Part shown: piece by piece, positions 21,661 through 32,442 of the stretch
Numbering within the stretch: position 1 is the stretch's first letter
Layout of the letters: each line of letters begins with the position of its first letter
DNA from: Lacticaseibacillus rhamnosus
GTDB lineage: Bacteria > Bacillota > Bacilli > Lactobacillales > Lactobacillaceae
DNA: 64,000 nt
Reading direction: 5' to 3'
Assembly (NCBI RefSeq): GCF_900636965.1
Contig: NZ_LR134331.1
Span: 496,001 to 560,000 of the forward strand
Translations under genes and position numbers: made by a program
The notes under the pieces: generated by a model
What the model saw: the letters and a program-made list of their open reading frames with translations, nothing else
Told to the model about the DNA's origin: nothing
The model's database searches: none

Positions 21661-21688
21661 GTTGCACTATGTTTGGGGAGGGGCTATC

Positions 21689-22378
21689 ATGCTGCAAAAG
21701 TTAAGAAGATCGAATCTTGTGAATATCTATTTCGGCGCTAGGGGGACTTTTCTAACATGCTTCACATTGATGTTCTTTTATTTTTTATTCTCAGTTTTAA
21801 CCAATACATTCTTAATACCATCTGACAAATTTGTCGGAAATATACCATCAATTTTAAGAGGCGAATACTGGTATATCATAACAGGACCGCTTTTCCATTA
21901 TGAATGGCATCACTTAATGTGGAATCTTTTACCGATTGCTGTTCTAGGGCCCTTTATTGAGTGGAAAATTGGTAGTTGGGTTTTCGTAACCAGTTTCTTT
22001 GTTTCTGGATGGGTTGGGTCTTCTATATTCTGTTTTGTATTTGGTGAGTTTATTCAGTCGATTTTGGGCATAGGTCTATATCTCTGTGTGTTCTATGGCG
22101 CGTCAATTGCAGTATATGCATTGTTTCCTCTGACTATAGCGGCGTTTTTAATAAAAGAACCTGAATATTCCTTCATTACTAAGGCAGTGGTTATTGGCGC
22201 GTTCTCATATCTCATACTCGGACTTTTTCCTAAAGCAGATGCATCGGATGCCCAGAGATTTGTGGAAATTGCGCATGTAAGTGGATTTATTGCGGGAATA
22301 ATCGGAGCAATTGTTGTCTCTGTAATCAAACTGCGAAGGAAAGTTGTTTCTTTTTTCCTTCGCCGATCAACAGATTAG
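21689..22378 (+). CDS. Rhomboid-family intramembrane serine protease
   Basis: The 229-residue membrane protein keeps the rhomboid core: FHYEWHHLMWN gives His70-x4-His75-x3-Asn79, the GlpG H-H-N pattern. GAS with candidate nucleophile Ser139 follows, then AHVSGFIAGI with candidate catalytic His196. Around six membrane helices are visible. The second glycine of the usual GxSG is replaced (GASI), so activity is likely but not certain. The ATG at 21689 has GGGGAGGGG seven bases before it. Base composition is AT-rich relative to neighbours and the gene sits next to a duplicated exonuclease fragment, in accessory DNA. Confidence 0.75.
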   Translation: MLQKLRRSNLVNIYFGARGTFLTCFTLMFFYFLFSVLTNTFLIPSDKFVGNIPSILRGEYWYIITGPLFHYEWHHLMWNLLPIAVLGPFIEWKIGSWVFVTSFFVSGWVGSSIFCFVFGEFIQSILGIGLYLCVFYGASIAVYALFPLTIAAFLIKEPEYSFITKAVVIGAFSYLILGLFPKADASDAQRFVEIAHVSGFIAGIIGAIVVSVIKLRRKVVSFFLRRSTD

Positions 22379-22432
22379 ACGTATATTGCTGTGGTACGGT
22401 CACAATTGCTTTGCTTTTAAATTTTGTTACCT

Positions 22433-22588
22433 GAATCCGGTTTTTGATCCGGTTCCGGGTTATTAGCGCGTTCCGGTGGGCGTTGAGAAAAGCCGGTAGC
22501 ATGGGTGATGAGCGGGTGGTTTTGGCATCACTGAACGCGGCGTGGGAGCAGATTGAAGTAACTGGTTGTGTTTTGCCGATTTCGAACT
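22433..22588 (-). pseudogene. Degraded duplicate of the 3' end of the exonuclease gene
   Basis: Bases 22433-22520 match 25067-25154 closely, from GAATCCGGTTTTTGATCCGG onward. After a gap, TTTTGGCATCACTGA.CGCGG..GTGGGAG and GTGTTTT..GCCGAT..CGAAC match further inside the exonuclease gene (25185-25282). Internal deletions break the frame. It is a relic direct repeat bordering the Rgg/peptide locus. Confidence 0.85.
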
Positions 22589-22869: not shown

Positions 22870-23478
22870 TTAAAAGGCTAAAAATACAATCGTTCGAGCA
22901 GTCCAATAAGCTGCTGTACTGTTCCATCCCATTTGAGTGACTAAAAAGCTTTGGATACCATCTTGCATATCACCTTCAAAGTTTGTAAGATAGTTGACCC
23001 AGTCACTTAATGTTTTTTCACCCATCTTTGCCCCGAGTACCTTAGCAGCAGCCTTGAAAACAGCTTTTATAACGGCTACCTTCCATCTTGCCTGTACTGC
23101 TGGATCGTCAGCAATACCTGCTTTTGATTGTAGAAATTGAGTTTTTTCGGAATCAGACCATCCATAATGGCTTGCTAATGTATCAAAGTTTGCTTTGTCT
23201 TCGGGTGATAGTTCAGCGTAAAGCTGGGAAAAACTTTTGGAGCTAGGATGAATGATCGTGTCAGACCAATTGATCTCTCCAGAATAATCGGGGGCAGATT
23301 TTCCAAACGTTTGATCTATTAAGTCGTCTAATGTTCCCCCATTGTTTGGTTGGATCGAATCTGAGATGGCAGTATCCGATTCTGCGGCGTGCACACTTGT
23401 AACAGCCGAAAGCGGACCAACCGATCCAAGAACTATAGCTAGACCAAGTACTGAGAGTTTCTTTGCGCTGAATTGCAT
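22870..23478 (-). CDS. Secreted protein of unknown function with cationic amphipathic segment
   Basis: The 202-residue precursor has a signal peptide (MQFSAKKLSVLGLAIVLG..SVHA) with likely cleavage before AESD. The mature part is acidic and polar up to about residue 130. A cationic amphipathic helix follows (RWKVAVIKAVFKAAAKVLG), and the C-terminus is hydrophobic and aromatic, ending NSTAAYWTARTIVFLAF. I know no named family. The helix resembles membrane-active peptides, which suggests a bacteriocin-like or signalling effector (inference). GGAGG precedes the ATG. It is the last gene of a run behind the hydrophobic peptide and the 59-residue membrane protein, divergent from an Rgg regulator. 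Confidence 0.75.
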   Translation of the reverse strand: MQFSAKKLSVLGLAIVLGSVGPLSAVTSVHAAESDTAISDSIQPNNGGTLDDLIDQTFGKSAPDYSGEINWSDTIIHPSSKSFSQLYAELSPEDKANFDTLASHYGWSDSEKTQFLQSKAGIADDPAVQARWKVAVIKAVFKAAAKVLGAKMGEKTLSDWVNYLTNFEGDMQDGIQSFLVTQMGWNSTAAYWTARTIVFLAF

Positions 23479-23504
23479 AAATATAATCCTCCTAAATGTC
23501 TCTA

Positions 23505-23684
23505 TTACGATTTTAAAGCGTTTGAGATGCTTTTATAAGCAATGAAAATCAGTATAGCGAAACTGATTAGGCCAAAGATAAAGATCGTAGATAAAACGAT
23601 GCCGCTTTGGGTTTGCTTGTAAAGAAATGCGAGTAACATCGCAATGACGAATGTTACCAAAAATGAAATCCATAATTTTAGCAT
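23505..23684 (-). CDS. Small two-helix membrane protein (59 residues)
   Basis: It encodes MLKLWISFLVTFVIAMLLAF.., a basic turn (YKQTQSG) and a second hydrophobic segment (IFIFGLISFAILIFIAYK). The basic C-terminus ends NALKS. GAGG lies nine bases before the ATG. Its size and place beside a secreted protein recall immunity or accessory membrane proteins of bacteriocin loci. No family was recognised. Confidence 0.65.
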   Translation of the reverse strand: MLKLWISFLVTFVIAMLLAFLYKQTQSGIVLSTIFIFGLISFAILIFIAYKSISNALKS

Positions 23685-23753
23685 TGATTTAAACCTCGGA
23701 ACATATATTTAACAATCTAACTCGATTTTAGCGAGTAGCCGTTGGATTTTCGA

Positions 23754-23819
23754 TCAGCCACCTGCGATAACGCGACCGCCAAGAGGCACTAAGATTGAAA
23801 GAAGTACGGTCATCATCAC
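23754..23819 (-). CDS. Short hydrophobic peptide, candidate Rgg pheromone (SHP-like)
   Basis: A ~21-residue peptide read from GTG 23819 (or ATG 23816 or 23813) contains TVLLSILVPLGG and ends RVIAGG. The strong GGAAGGAG site lies eight bases before the GTG. Known streptococcal SHP pheromones are 20-30 residues, hydrophobic, divergent from or adjacent to rgg, and end in a processed ..VGG-type octapeptide. This frame lies 108 bases from the rgg start on the opposite strand and ends ..IAGG. It also differs: there is no run of basic residues at the start and an Arg falls in the tail. Processing and activity are inference. Confidence 0.55.
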   Translation of the reverse strand: MMMTVLLSILVPLGGRVIAGG

Positions 23820-23880
23820 TTCTTCAGCTCCTTCCTTTGTTCTGCATATAGTGTAGGGGATGAACGCTGTTTTTTGTGTT

Positions 23881-23900
23881 AATATGAAATCATTCATATT
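23881..23900. promoter_or_regulatory. Palindrome in the rgg-peptide divergent promoter region
   Basis: AATATGAA-ATCA-TTCATATT is a perfect inverted repeat with 8-base arms, 28 bases before the rgg TTG start. It is ~80 bases upstream of the peptide gene on the other strand. It is a likely binding site for the Rgg protein. The peptide side has a possible -10 (TACACT) but no good -35, as expected for an activated promoter. Confidence 0.55.
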
Positions 23901-23927
23901 TTTGGCTAAAAATTAGGAGTTTATATA

Positions 23928-24800
23928 TTGAAGTATGCAGCGGGTTCTATTTACCATGAAGTACGGCGACGACGAGAACTGAGGATTAAGGAGGTTAGAG
24001 GAAACCTCCACCAATCAACGATTTCGCACCTGGAACATGATACGGTTGACATGACCTTAAATACGATGATGAAGATACTTAAACCAACTTTTATGTCGGC
24101 TGAAGAATTCTGCCAATTGATTGATGAACAAAGCGAGTCACCAACCTTCATTTTCAAAAAGATTGCGCGTTATTATGATGAAATGAACGTGGCTGGCTTG
24201 AAACAGCTAGTGACTGTTTACAAAAGGGATAAATTGCTAACCACACCAAACAGACTGGTTTTATTGACAATCCAAAGCTGCATTGATGAATTATCTGAAA
24301 AAAAGCACTTGTTGTCTCAAGATGATTGTGACTTTGTTCAAGGATATCTTCTGCATCCAGGACGATGGTTTAGCTTTGAATATATTGTTTTTGCTAACCT
24401 GTCATTTTCAATGCCGGCTAAGATTAACTTAAGAGTTTCCAAGAAAATGGTGCGAGCATACGAACAGTTTCATTTACCCAGTTATGATAGTCTTTTGGTA
24501 AATGTCTTATATAATTTATCGACCTCATTTCTTGATCAAGAAGACCCTAAATTATCAGCACGCTTTTTAAACTTTCTTGATTTAGATAAGTTAAATCACA
24601 ACAATCTTTATATGCGACACCATATAACTTTTCTGAAGCTAGTTATTCGATTTCAAACAAATCCATTAGACAAAGCTAACGTAGAAAAGCTAAAGGTGTT
24701 CTTAGAAGCGACTAGGCTTATTGATGAGACTTTATTTAAAAAGAATATTGACTGGATTGAGTCGCTAAAAATAAATCCCGTGATTATTTTAGGGAAATAG
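23928..24800 (+). CDS. Rgg/GadR/MutR-family transcriptional regulator
   Basis: The 290-residue protein has an N-terminal XRE-type helix-turn-helix (residues ~6-50; IKEVRGNLHQSTISHLEHDT, TLNTMMKIL) followed by a long helical repeat domain as in Rgg regulators. Rgg proteins bind imported short peptides and activate neighbouring promoters. The TTG start at 23928 has AGGAG eight bases upstream. It is divergent from the hydrophobic peptide and two membrane or secreted protein genes. The HTH region is rather basic (HEVRRRRELRIKEV). No second regulator or ABC exporter is near. The match is by architecture and pattern. Confidence 0.8.
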   Translation: MKYAAGSIYHEVRRRRELRIKEVRGNLHQSTISHLEHDTVDMTLNTMMKILKPTFMSAEEFCQLIDEQSESPTFIFKKIARYYDEMNVAGLKQLVTVYKRDKLLTTPNRLVLLTIQSCIDELSEKKHLLSQDDCDFVQGYLLHPGRWFSFEYIVFANLSFSMPAKINLRVSKKMVRAYEQFHLPSYDSLLVNVLYNLSTSFLDQEDPKLSARFLNFLDLDKLNHNNLYMRHHITFLKLVIRFQTNPLDKANVEKLKVFLEATRLIDETLFKKNIDWIESLKINPVIILGK

Positions 24801-25042: not shown

Positions 25043-26458
25043 TTAATCTTTGTTGTATGAATCCGGTTTTTGATCCGGTTCCGGGTTATTAGCGTGTTCC
25101 GGTGGGCGTTGAGAAAAACCGATATCACGAGTGATGAGCGGGTGGCCTTGCCAGATGAGGTGTTCCAGCAGCGCCATCGTGGTTTTGGCATCACTGAGCG
25201 CGGTGTGGGAGGGCAGGTCGATTCCGAGTGCCTCTTTGTAATGTTGCAGTGACGGGGTGTGTTTTTTGCCGATACCGAACGTTTTACGCGCCAGCACCGC
25301 AGCATCAAACGCTTGTAGAGGGGCAACTTTGATGGCTAGGCCGGATTCAATGGCGCGGAGATCGTTGCTTAAAGCGAACCCGACAACTAATTCATGCTGG
25401 AGCAGCTGTTGCAGCGCAGTTTTAACAAGTGGCAGAGGTTGGCCGTATTTTTCCAATAAGTCGTCGGTAATGCCGGTGATTTTAACCGAGAATGGCATGA
25501 CGTGATGGCCGGCTGGCAGTTGCGTGAAAATATCGAATGTCTGATCAATCTGATGCTGGCGGATGCGCAACAAACTGATTTCGGTTAAGTCAAGCTGATT
25601 GCGATCGGCGACGAATTCGGTGTCGATGACGACATAATCACCGTGAGCAAGGCGGTCAATGACATCGCGGTGGGTTGTCAATGCTGGCTGATCTGAGGCA
25701 AGCTCGGTTACTAAAGTGGGGTTAAGCTGCAATGACTTAGCTGCGCGGCGCTGGGCTGCTTGAACTAGCGGCATCTCTTCGCGGGCAAATTTTGCGGCGA
25801 GCCGGGCCATCAGTTGATCTGCTTGAACTTGCCGCTGATGTTGTAGTGAGACCAGCGATTGATCCGCGGTGCCAAGGGTAATATCAAATAACCGTGCGAG
25901 CCAGATAGCCGCATCAGAAGCCGGAGCGGTAGTGACATACACCCCGTTTATATCGGGCAGAGCGAATGCCACCTGTCCATTTTCTGCCCAGTTGGTTAAC
26001 CCCAAGGCGAGTAGATGAACCCAATCGCGAAAAGGCCGCATGAAAGCAAACAACTGGCGCTGACGGTCTAACCGATCTAGACGCTTAGCCGCTGCGGACA
26101 CAGCAGCGGCTAATTGCAAGGCGAGGCTTTTGCGATGATTGCCAAAGTCTTTGAGCTTAAACTTGACTGGTAAAATGGCACTACGCGGGCGCAACATATA
26201 ACGCAGACGGCCACCTTCCGGGAACCAGCGGGCTAGATCAAAGCTGACATCGCCACGAGGAGAGACCTGATTAACGGTGGCCGGCTGTTTAGCGGTTGGG
26301 GTACGATGCTGGAGAACCGCCATCAGTTCGTTGAGTCGGGTGCGAACCTCGGCGGCGTTGCGCGGCTTGATAATCGGATCACGCAGCAAATGATTTAGCT
26401 GCCGGCGAGCTTGACGCGGTGAGTGACTTGGCTTGCGATGTGGTCTGGACTGCACCAT
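25043..26458 (-). CDS. DEDD-type 3'-5' exonuclease (DnaQ/RNase T-like) with long N-terminal region
   Basis: The 471-residue protein has its exonuclease domain at residues ~270-440. It contains VVIDTEFV (Asp279, Glu281), the ExoII-like FALSNDLRAI and the ExoIII-like HTALSDAKTTM (His and Asp), so all DEDDh residues appear present. Residues 1-260 show no domain I know, with basic stretches at the start. The ATG has AAAGGAGG upstream. The C-terminal end (NNPEPDQKPDSYNKD) lies in the segment duplicated at 22433-22588. It may act in DNA repair or RNA trimming; the function is not fixed. Confidence 0.8.
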   Translation of the reverse strand: MVQSRPHRKPSHSPRQARRQLNHLLRDPIIKPRNAAEVRTRLNELMAVLQHRTPTAKQPATVNQVSPRGDVSFDLARWFPEGGRLRYMLRPRSAILPVKFKLKDFGNHRKSLALQLAAAVSAAAKRLDRLDRQRQLFAFMRPFRDWVHLLALGLTNWAENGQVAFALPDINGVYVTTAPASDAAIWLARLFDITLGTADQSLVSLQHQRQVQADQLMARLAAKFAREEMPLVQAAQRRAAKSLQLNPTLVTELASDQPALTTHRDVIDRLAHGDYVVIDTEFVADRNQLDLTEISLLRIRQHQIDQTFDIFTQLPAGHHVMPFSVKITGITDDLLEKYGQPLPLVKTALQQLLQHELVVGFALSNDLRAIESGLAIKVAPLQAFDAAVLARKTFGIGKKHTPSLQHYKEALGIDLPSHTALSDAKTTMALLEHLIWQGHPLITRDIGFSQRPPEHANNPEPDQKPDSYNKD

Positions 26459-30487: not shown

Positions 30488-30629
30488 CTGGGGATTTAGA
30501 TTTTGGATTGACGTAACCATGATTTCACAGCTTTTAAACGGGGAGGTGATCAACAGTACCTATAAACATGGAACAATATAGAATATAAGGGTATAATACG
30601 AGCATAATAATCAAGTGGAAGGTGCTCGT

Positions 30630-31226
30630 ATGTTCAAACCAAACGAAATGGCTAAGCGACTTGGTGTGACCGTCAAAACTCTGCAAAAATGGGATAATTC
30701 CGGTAAGTTTAAAGCTCATCGAACGCCGACAAATCGACGCTATTACACTGAGGATCAATATTTGGCTTATATCAGTCATAATGATCAACCAAAGAAACGT
30801 CTTCAGGTGGCTTATGCTCGAGTATCAAATGTCGGGCAAAAAGATGATCTAGCTAATCAAATTGATTTTTTGCGTCGATATGCTAATGGTAAGGGCATTA
30901 TTCTTGATGAAGTGATAACGGATATTGGGAGTGGCCTAAACTACAAACGCAAAAAATGGAATGCCTTGTTAGATGATGTGATGGCTGGTCATGTTGAAAC
31001 TATTTTCGTGACTTATAAAGATCGTTTTGTTCGTTTCGGCTACGACTGGTTTGAACGCCTAGCGCAAAAGTTCGACACCCAAATCGTGGTGTTGAATAAC
31101 CCTGATCTTTCGCCTCAAGAAGAACTAACTGAAGACCTGATTAGTATTATTCACGTGTTTTCTTGCCGATTATATGGCTTACGTAAATACAAGAAGAAAC
31201 TTGAAGACGATCCGTCTTTGAAGTAA
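30630..31226 (+). CDS. tnpA: IS607-family serine recombinase (TnpA)
   Basis: The 198-residue protein has an N-terminal MerR-like helix-turn-helix (FKPNEMAKRLGVTVKTLQKWDNSGKFKAHRTPTNRRYY) followed by a serine resolvase domain. Nucleophile Ser66 is in AYARVSNVGQKDDLANQ. This order, DNA-binding domain first, is special to IS607 transposases. It would catalyse strand exchange via a circular intermediate. The ATG at 30630 has GGAAGGTG upstream. A TATAAT box at 30591 probably drives it. The gene is intact. Confidence 0.92.
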   Translation: MFKPNEMAKRLGVTVKTLQKWDNSGKFKAHRTPTNRRYYTEDQYLAYISHNDQPKKRLQVAYARVSNVGQKDDLANQIDFLRRYANGKGIILDEVITDIGSGLNYKRKKWNALLDDVMAGHVETIFVTYKDRFVRFGYDWFERLAQKFDTQIVVLNNPDLSPQEELTEDLISIIHVFSCRLYGLRKYKKKLEDDPSLK

Positions 31227-31260
31227 GTCCCTTAGTTAACTTGAAAGGAGGTGAACACTT

Positions 31261-32442
31261 TTGATTAAAACGCATAAGATCAAACTATATCCCAATTCAA
31301 CGATGCGCAAAGAACTAGATAAATTGTTTGATTATCGCCGTTTCGTCTGGAATCAAGCGCTGGAAATCTGGAATGACATGTATGATGCTTCTTTAGTCAT
31401 GATAGATAAGTCAATACGGCCTAATGAGCGAAAAGTTCGTGATGAACTGGTGGCGAATAAGGCAGATTGGCAGTTTGAACGATCAGCGCGAGTCTTACAG
31501 CTTGCCGTGAATGATTTAAGTAAGGCGTGGGCAAACTATTTCAATCCTAAAATGCCCAATCATGACAAGCCTAGGTGGAAGTCGAAAAAGCGATCACGTA
31601 AAACTTTTAAAACGGATCGTGCTCAGATAGTCAATGGCAAGCTTCGTTTGGATCAGCCACGTGGTACCAAACTCTGGTATGACATTAAACTGGCTGAACT
31701 GCCACGATGGCGGGGTGACATCAAGCAAGTTTGCATCGTTCAAGACGCAGATGGCTACTATGCATCGTTGTCTATTGAAGCTGCAGTCCTAGCTGAAAAA
31801 AGACCCATTCGACGGGTTACTGGCGTTGATGTCAATGTGGGCAAGTTCGACTACCGAACTGCCTCCGGTTATGCCATTCAGCCGACAATACCTGCTTCGC
31901 TAGCAGCACTTTACGCTCGTATCACGCACTACCAAAAACAGCTTGCCCGTAAACGAACCACAAATCCAAAGCGCTTTAATTCAGCGACCTATCGCGCAAC
32001 GAGAACCAAGTTGAAGCGAAACTATCAACGCGTTGAACGGATACAAATGGATTTGTTAAACAAATTTACAACCAAGCTAATTGTAGATAACGATCTAATT
32101 GGGATAGAAGACTTGGATAATCAGCACATGCGCATGAATCGTCGTCTTGCTAAAAACCTGCATCGTTCAATGTTTGGTAAATTCAAAATCATGATGCAAT
32201 ACAAAGCGGATTGGAACGGCAGTACTTTAATTCTTGCCGATCCAATGTTTCCGAGTACGCAACGGTGTTCAAAATGTGGTTACATCAAAACTGGTGAAGA
32301 GAAACTTACTTTGCACGGTAATGCCAAATACCACACTGGACATGACGATTACATTTGCTACCAATGCGGTGCTAGGATGCGGCGCGATGAAAATGCAGTT
32401 GATAACCTGATCGATTATGCGAAATCAAAAGTACAGGGGTAG
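31261..32442 (+). CDS. tnpB: TnpB, RNA-guided RuvC-like nuclease
   Basis: The 393-residue protein has all three RuvC acidic residues: Asp190 in TGVDVNVG, Glu283 in IGIEDLDN and Asp376 in RRDENAVDN. A zinc ribbon lies between the last two (Cys336, Cys339, Cys366, Cys369). TnpB proteins cut DNA using an RNA made from the element's right end and help the element persist. The TTG start at 31261 follows a near-perfect AAAGGAGGTGA. No truncation or lost catalytic residue is seen, so it should be active. Confidence 0.92.
   Translation: MIKTHKIKLYPNSTMRKELDKLFDYRRFVWNQALEIWNDMYDASLVMIDKSIRPNERKVRDELVANKADWQFERSARVLQLAVNDLSKAWANYFNPKMPNHDKPRWKSKKRSRKTFKTDRAQIVNGKLRLDQPRGTKLWYDIKLAELPRWRGDIKQVCIVQDADGYYASLSIEAAVLAEKRPIRRVTGVDVNVGKFDYRTASGYAIQPTIPASLAALYARITHYQKQLARKRTTNPKRFNSATYRATRTKLKRNYQRVERIQMDLLNKFTTKLIVDNDLIGIEDLDNQHMRMNRRLAKNLHRSMFGKFKIMMQYKADWNGSTLILADPMFPSTQRCSKCGYIKTGEEKLTLHGNAKYHTGHDDYICYQCGARMRRDENAVDNLIDYAKSKVQG

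Follow-up and report, generated by a model that had tools for sequence, protein, structure and literature searches.

Does a gene for an Rgg-family regulator, together with a very short open reading frame (ORF) divergent from it, form a quorum-sensing circuit of the Rgg/short hydrophobic peptide (SHP) type in Lacticaseibacillus rhamnosus, and does such a circuit govern a bacteriocin-like protein? The question was raised by the window, the whole stretch of 64,000 nucleotides (nt) analysed here, which corresponds to positions 496,001-560,000 of a genome of 2,988,387 bp in a single contig, all of which was scanned. We favour, with moderate confidence, a divergent Rgg/SHP-type quorum-sensing circuit controlling a bacteriocin-like precursor. 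The relation between the Rgg gene and its putative operator is the solid part of this reading as far as sequence can tell. The features that carry it are the following, in window coordinates.

23928-24800, plus strand: Rgg-family regulator (helix-turn-helix (HTH) and Rgg C-terminal repeat domain), TTG start, 290 amino acids (aa)
23881-23900: candidate Rgg operator, AATATGAA-ATCA-TTCATATT, with the core ATATGA-N6-TCATAT
23850-23855, minus strand: possible -10 element TACACT, lying 25 nt beyond the 20-bp dyad
23828-23833, minus strand: Shine-Dalgarno (SD) sequence AAGGAG, 8 nt upstream of the peptide ORF's GTG
23754-23819, minus strand: SHP-like peptide ORF of 21 aa, MMMTVLLSILVPLGGRVIAGG, predicted pheromone precursor, GTG ATG ATG start
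23505-23684, minus strand: small membrane protein of 59 aa, two hydrophobic segments by hydropathy, immunity candidate, homologous frame in L. zeae and in genome G023
22870-23478, minus strand: secreted-type precursor of 202 aa, bacteriocin-like, hydrophobic signal-like N-terminal segment

The regulator and its putative operator

A preliminary description, made from the window's letters, had placed an Rgg-type regulator at 23928-24800. It is indeed found there: profile searches put the protein over the cut-offs for PF21259 and TIGR01716, and its predicted fold is closest to Rgg144, Rgg3 and Rgg2, as for an SHP receptor. No HTH family was over cut-off by sequence, and the N-terminus is covered by the fold match to Rgg144 and Rgg2; the protein would have both the HTH and the Rgg C-terminal peptide-binding domain that characterise the receptors of Rgg/SHP systems. 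A tblastn search for a plasmid origin of this Rgg gave 0 matches among 72,556 plasmid records.

The perfect palindrome with 8-base arms that had been described between the Rgg gene and the peptide was confirmed at 23881-23900. A palindrome of this size is by itself common enough, as it appeared in 4.25% of 2000 dinucleotide shuffles of the 243-bp interval. The genome scan showed that the core ATATGA-N6-TCATAT has exactly two perfect matches, at 519,882 (in the window) and at 112,795 (at L007, a paralogous Rgg locus), and that both adjoin Rgg genes, just upstream of them (at a distance of 31 bp from the start codon in the window and of 51 bp in the paralogue). When one mismatch was allowed, the core was found at 12 genome places (2 perfect and 10 imperfect) versus 4 for the reversed-pattern control. 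Comparison with L. zeae (L014) and G023 (L035) showed that AAATATGAATGATTTCATATTA is invariant across the three loci and that its flanks have diverged; the three are orthologous and hence not independent in this comparison. The dyad is very likely the Rgg operator, because the two perfect copies of the core both lie at Rgg promoters and because the dyad is unchanged in the two orthologous loci.

The comparison was extended to a subfamily set of 10 Rgg loci. The shorter pattern TGA-N6-TCA was present 21-51 bp before the Rgg start, within a search range of 150 bp, in 8/10 loci (not in L008 and L038), and shuffles of those eight yielded it at 2-13% per locus. A conserved operator at the peptide promoter, as expected of Rgg/SHP systems, thus appears to be present on sequence grounds. 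On the peptide strand, TANNCT follows the dyad after 25 nt in all three orthologous loci (TACACT, TAATCT and TAAGCT).

The candidate signal peptide

A hydrophobic peptide of about 21 residues with a strong ribosome-binding site, divergent from the Rgg gene, had been described at 23754-23819 and was found as stated; this is the adjacent short hydrophobic ORF (about 20-30 codons) with an SD sequence that is characteristic of Rgg/SHP systems. The frame is open further upstream and, if started at an ATG within the dyad (23897), would encode 47 aa. Because of the position of the SD sequence, the short start is favoured over this longer version. No match to the window peptide was found in NCBIfam or Pfam at E≤10.

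We then counted SD-preceded ORFs under a strict rule, by which the last ten residues must average a hydropathy of 0.5 or more, with V, I, L, M, F, A or G at seven or more of the ten positions. When the 243-bp interval was dinucleotide-shuffled 2000 times, such an ORF arose on the peptide strand in 0.4% of cases, an SD ORF with a hydrophobic C-terminus in 2%, and any SD ORF of 15-35 codons in 7.35%. The strict rule was satisfied by three ORFs in the whole window, on both strands and with the window peptide included. The rule was drawn up with the window peptide already known, so the other Rgg loci are the fairer test. Strict-rule candidates were found in 5/10 loci of the subfamily set, when about 0.09 were expected from the summed frequencies in shuffles of intergenic intervals (six loci) or of 250-nt stretches (L035, L038, L040 and L042); none was found at L007, L014, L035, L040 and L042. 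The candidates other than that of the window are as follows.

L008: MPDLTEILNDTYPVGDDVIIVPG
L036: MTTTLMISAFILVQGIRIIVRV
L041: MLEMAIGMFYHLAGIIIVCG
L038: MISSCVKDVMLLVLQVVQADSVLLL

The L038 candidate was discounted, as it overlaps in antisense the end of a 94-aa ORF (AbrB-like by eye). Aspartate or glutamate is present in the L008 and L041 peptides and not in that of L036. At E≤10, NCBIfam gave no match for the L008, L036 and L041 peptides, and Pfam none for that of L008. The C-termini of the candidate peptides resemble those of the streptococcal SHPs EGIIVIVVG (available part of PMC11414475) and DILIIVGG (available part of PMC5167397). An SHP-looking ORF, MKKQKLLPLLFLILGGIMIIVVG, is also divergent from a more distant Rgg gene at L101.

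Layouts at other Rgg loci

L008 (G000:C1:2,363,500-2,368,500, about 2.366 Mb, in the same genome) is arguably a stronger Rgg/SHP/bacteriocin example than the window locus. Its Rgg, 34% identical to that of the window, is divergent from a peptide ending in ..DDVIIVPG (2225-2296 in locus coordinates) and from a bacteriocin of 186 aa (1605-2165). This bacteriocin belongs to the EntV family (NF058576, 176.2 bits versus a cut-off of 130, 5e-52) and has two cysteines, and the profile of its family matches EntV (7roa) at 1.3e-34. A 73-aa protein with one hydrophobic segment by a hydropathy scale is also encoded there, divergently. Relatives of the bacteriocin at E≤0.001 were found in 4/397 genomes of the host's taxonomic family and, within the genus, in this genome only. 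When the ORFs of at least 90 aa in the 1.5-kb flanks of nine EntV-family loci outside this genome were compared with profile A6, there were 0 matches.

The other loci of the set have different neighbours. At L007 (G000:C1:110,500-115,500) the Rgg is 50% identical to that of the window, and an ABC transporter is encoded divergently from it; the transporter's ATPase is similar to ABC proteins for lantibiotic protection, with 153.5 bits, short of the cut-off of 309.75. L036, the second Rgg locus of G023, has the peptide, a 104-aa secreted-type protein and an ABC ATPase like that beside L007, of which it is probably the orthologue, judged by eye. The L041 peptide (G007) precedes a frame that is cut by the contig end and looks ABC-transporter-like by eye.

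Two further layouts were noted. About 1 kb from the L038 Rgg (G010:C59:14,800-21,700) lie two ORFs with double-glycine-type leaders (..RISGG.. and ..QITGG..) and a hydrophobic 93-aa ORF, bacteriocin-like by eye. At L113 (1489-3352), in a genome from a different family within the order, a protein weakly matching the EntV family is encoded near an HTH regulator gene and a 47-aa small ORF; the regulator has a weak RNPP_C match (20.8 bits versus a cut-off of 26.5), and the locus is possibly another RRNPP-controlled EntV-like bacteriocin.

The membrane protein and the secreted protein

The peptide heads a same-strand run with a two-helix membrane protein and a secreted protein holding a cationic segment, each feature being in place as the preliminary description had it. 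The cationic segment, RWKVAVIKAVFKAAAKVLG, has five K/R and no D/E. A precursor accompanied by a small membrane protein is the usual bacteriocin/immunity arrangement; the two proteins have this layout, and killing and immunity would be their respective functions. AlphaFold predicted the secreted protein as all helix with a predicted local distance difference test score (pLDDT) of 57.2. In PHROGs there were weak matches only, all with unknown function.

Searches of 60 relatives at E≤0.001 gave two genomes with a match to the secreted protein, its own and G043, and searches of 395 genomes of the order at E≤0.01 gave 17, its own included. The best relatives are those of G705 (2.2e-19, 43%) and G630 (2.7e-11), and some weaker matches cover other parts of the protein. 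Relatives lie on chromosomes and also on plasmids, the latter in five records (3e-8 to 4e-10), from Lactobacillus helsingborgensis (n=3), Lactobacillus sp. (n=1) and Enterococcus hirae (n=1); one effector relative shares an 8.8-kb plasmid with a helveticin J gene. From about residue 80 on, the window protein has a C-terminal half in common with other proteins (alignments A2 and A5). Alignment A5 holds nine proteins, among which L088 and L089 are near-identical. Left out from the matches of the 17 genomes were L061 (E 1.5e-5, a 73-aa frame, no precursor found), L062 (stops within the frame) and nine matches that were short or fell in other parts of the protein (L064-L066 and L068-L073). The only invariant columns of A5 are L90 and W192, and most of the proteins end in G-x-N-x-T-x-A-x-W or near that. 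A small protein with two hydrophobic segments adjoins 7/9 of the aligned effectors; none was seen for L079 and L087.

The orthologous loci of L. zeae and G023 encode Rgg proteins 66% and 70% identical, respectively, to that of the window. The left neighbour is as in the window at both loci, and the right one too in L. zeae; these conserved flanking genes are OsmC-like and exonuclease-like (named by eye). The membrane-protein frame directly follows at both loci.

The proposed circuit and its alternatives

In the circuit that we propose, the promoter next to the dyad would give rise to the 21-aa peptide, which would leave the cell, be shortened to a brief pheromone from its C-terminal end (roughly ..LGGRVIAGG) and be taken up again to bind Rgg. 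Seated on ATATGA-N6-TCATAT, Rgg would then drive expression of the peptide itself, as positive feedback, and of both the membrane protein and the secreted-type precursor. This precursor would exit via Sec and be cut, its cationic/amphipathic C-terminal part would act on neighbouring bacteria, and the membrane protein would protect the producer. Translation and pheromone activity of the peptide, binding and activation by Rgg, antibacterial activity and immunity are steps that we infer. For Eep-type processing of the peptide, a regulated intramembrane proteolysis (RIP) protease of the TIGR00054 (Eep/RseP) type is encoded in the genome (283.9 bits, over the cut-off), a generic family that was matched in 14/14 control genomes and was over the cut-off in 9.

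Several results weigh against this circuit. By the strict rule, no peptide ORF is present at the L. zeae and G023 loci, though the Rgg gene and the dyad are kept there; conservation of the peptide among relatives with the same Rgg, on which the preliminary description had made its reading depend, therefore failed at both. The secreted gene is absent from both loci too, its product having no match at E≤0.001 in either genome. One reading of the orthologous loci is that Rgg functions in the absence of the peptide. They can also be read as a joint loss of toxin and signal with the immunity gene kept, which would favour the circuit. The four accepted peptides (window, L008, L036 and L041) share a common pattern and no alignable sequence. 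That of the window lacks, as had been noted from the start, some features of SHPs: it has no Asp or Glu, no basic N-terminus (R16 being its sole charged residue) and no match at E≤10 to NF033797, the SHP2/SHP3 model, which is narrow (the SHP-looking ORF of L101 scored 7.9 versus a cut-off of 38). Asp or Glu at the maturation site is usual in SHPs according to the available part of PMC12445099, and basic N-termini are exemplified in Table 1 of PMC5167397. Judged by its residues, the window peptide is not a classical SHP; it is still likely to be the signal for Rgg. A consensus promoter scan did not flag the proposed -10 element and gave 8 sites versus 7.7 in shuffles.

The effector side holds further points of this kind. 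No Pfam or NCBIfam model was over cut-off for the five effectors tested (those of the window, L078, L079, L081 and L082), and the relatives at L013, L081 and L082 are marginal (G043, 2.4e-4; G504, 0.00125; G607, 0.0043). Membership of the window protein in the EntV family was rejected: NF058576 gave no match, hhalign gave a probability of 13% confined to the signal peptide, and the protein has no cysteine. No Rgg was seen, by eye, beside the effector relatives outside the genus, so the link between effector and Rgg comes from the window alone. The earlier reading, an Rgg/SHP locus with a secreted effector, thus held for the Rgg fold, the operator, the SHP-like ORFs here and at three other Rgg loci, and the bacteriocin features; it gave way on the peptide, which is not a classical SHP and is absent from both orthologous loci.

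It is rather unlikely, though by no means negligible, that Rgg acts through the dyad and senses something else, in the manner of MutR/GadR or by way of a pheromone made elsewhere, the 21-codon ORF being a by-product or a leader. The retention of Rgg and dyad without the peptide ORF at the orthologous loci, the half of the subfamily loci without a strict-rule peptide and the missing SHP hallmarks all speak for it. However, the secreted gene has gone from the same orthologous loci, a peptide ORF occupies the same position at L008 and L036, the two other loci where a secreted-type protein is encoded divergently, and an SD sequence with a hydrophobic C-terminus is rare in shuffles. We give little credence to the peptide as part of the weapon, a small product that acts on membranes and is expressed along with the secreted protein. 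It is hydrophobic, heads the run and lies on the effector's strand, but in the ORF lists of effector loci from outside the genus, read by eye, no SHP-like ORF stood immediately before the precursor gene (at L081 there is a hydrophobic ORF of 31 aa close by, on the opposite strand), and within the genus such ORFs adjoin Rgg genes with differing neighbours.

A decaying or silent bacteriocin island without a working circuit has a similarly small chance of being the explanation: the effector is missing at both orthologous loci, the usual ATG of the membrane-protein frame is lost in G023, and flanking direct repeats with a duplicated gene end suggest rearrangement, whereas reading frames, SD sites and dyad are intact in the window. 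Least probable, and very improbable in our view, is a circuit of the RopB/leaderless communication peptide (LCP) type with a leaderless peptide of about 8 residues. LCP circuits are reported from Lactobacillaceae in the available part of PMC10518010, but the interval 23685-23927 holds no SD-preceded ORF of 4-14 codons, and this reading was rejected for it.

A broader picture may be proposed, which we hold tentatively and would not quite expect to stand. Lacticaseibacillus would have a genus-specific set of Rgg proteins, each with its own SHP-like pheromone, some of these without the acidic cleavage residue, wired to interchangeable bacteriocin cassettes (the EntV family, the unnamed family of the window and others). 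Orthologous sites that keep receptor, operator and immunity-like gene and have lost signal and toxin together would then be eavesdropper or immune-only strains, as against producers.

Relation to known systems

The window locus resembles the streptococcal Rgg2/Rgg3-SHP and Rgg144 systems in its Rgg receptor fold, its divergent small hydrophobic ORF with an SD sequence, the dyad in the shared intergenic region and the same-strand neighbour genes. It differs from them in that the peptide has no Asp/Glu maturation residue, basic N-terminus or NF033797 match, the effector is a secreted-type precursor and the host is a Lacticaseibacillus. As in EntV (enterocin O16; NF058576, PDB 7ROA), the effector is a secreted pre-pro-protein, and the paralogous L008 encodes a member above the cut-off; unlike EntV, the window protein has no cysteine and no detectable homology beyond the signal peptide. 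EntV needs its disulfide, is cleaved by GelE and inhibits Candida virulence, according to the available part of PMC9562342.

An Rgg-type receptor, a divergent peptide and a host in the Lactobacillaceae are shared with the RopB/LCP circuits of Limosilactobacillus reuteri and others, whereas LCPs are leaderless with about 8 residues and the window ORF has 21 codons. The target in L. reuteri is an ABC transporter (PMC10518010, available part). The preliminary description had called Rgg-SHP circuits mainly streptococcal; this fits the literature on SHPs and needs qualifying for Rgg circuits, as RopB/LCP-type ones are already described in L. reuteri in the same source. In the adjacency of a peptide-receptor pair to antimicrobial genes, the locus is like the RRNPP-linked biosynthetic clusters of RRNPP_detector, whose catalogue counts six Lactobacillaceae cases in the part of PMC10075063 available. 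In the available part of PMC12346395, rgg genes are reported in bacteriocin regulation in L. paracasei, without the layout of the window. Among the literature matches listed, no title dealt with the window locus or with SHP-Rgg control of an EntV-like bacteriocin in lactobacilli.

If the circuit operates as proposed, SHP-type Rgg signalling, mostly described in streptococci, would extend to a food and probiotic genus. It would be tied to a bacteriocin-like family that no Pfam or NCBIfam model was found to cover and, at L008, to an EntV-family bacteriocin. Such control could explain why bacteriocins of this sort may seem silent under laboratory conditions, and would offer a simple means of switching them on.

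Surroundings of the module

Two repeats were found by blastn around the module.

22417-22548: left direct repeat, in which the 3' end of the 471-aa exonuclease-like gene at 25043-26458 recurs in part (87% across 111 bp and 94% across 33 bp)
25043-25211: right direct repeat, the 3' end of the exonuclease-like gene itself

The truncated second gene end at 22417-22548 therefore leaves the module flanked by direct repeats. A gene for a rhomboid-family membrane protease (21662-22378; PF01694, 56.3 bits) adjoins the module; among the ORFs listed for the orthologous stretch of L. zeae, none of this type was seen by eye. Further along the window, at 30615-32442, adjoining ORFs for a serine-recombinase-like protein (203 aa) and a TnpB-like protein (393 aa) look by eye like an IS607-type element.

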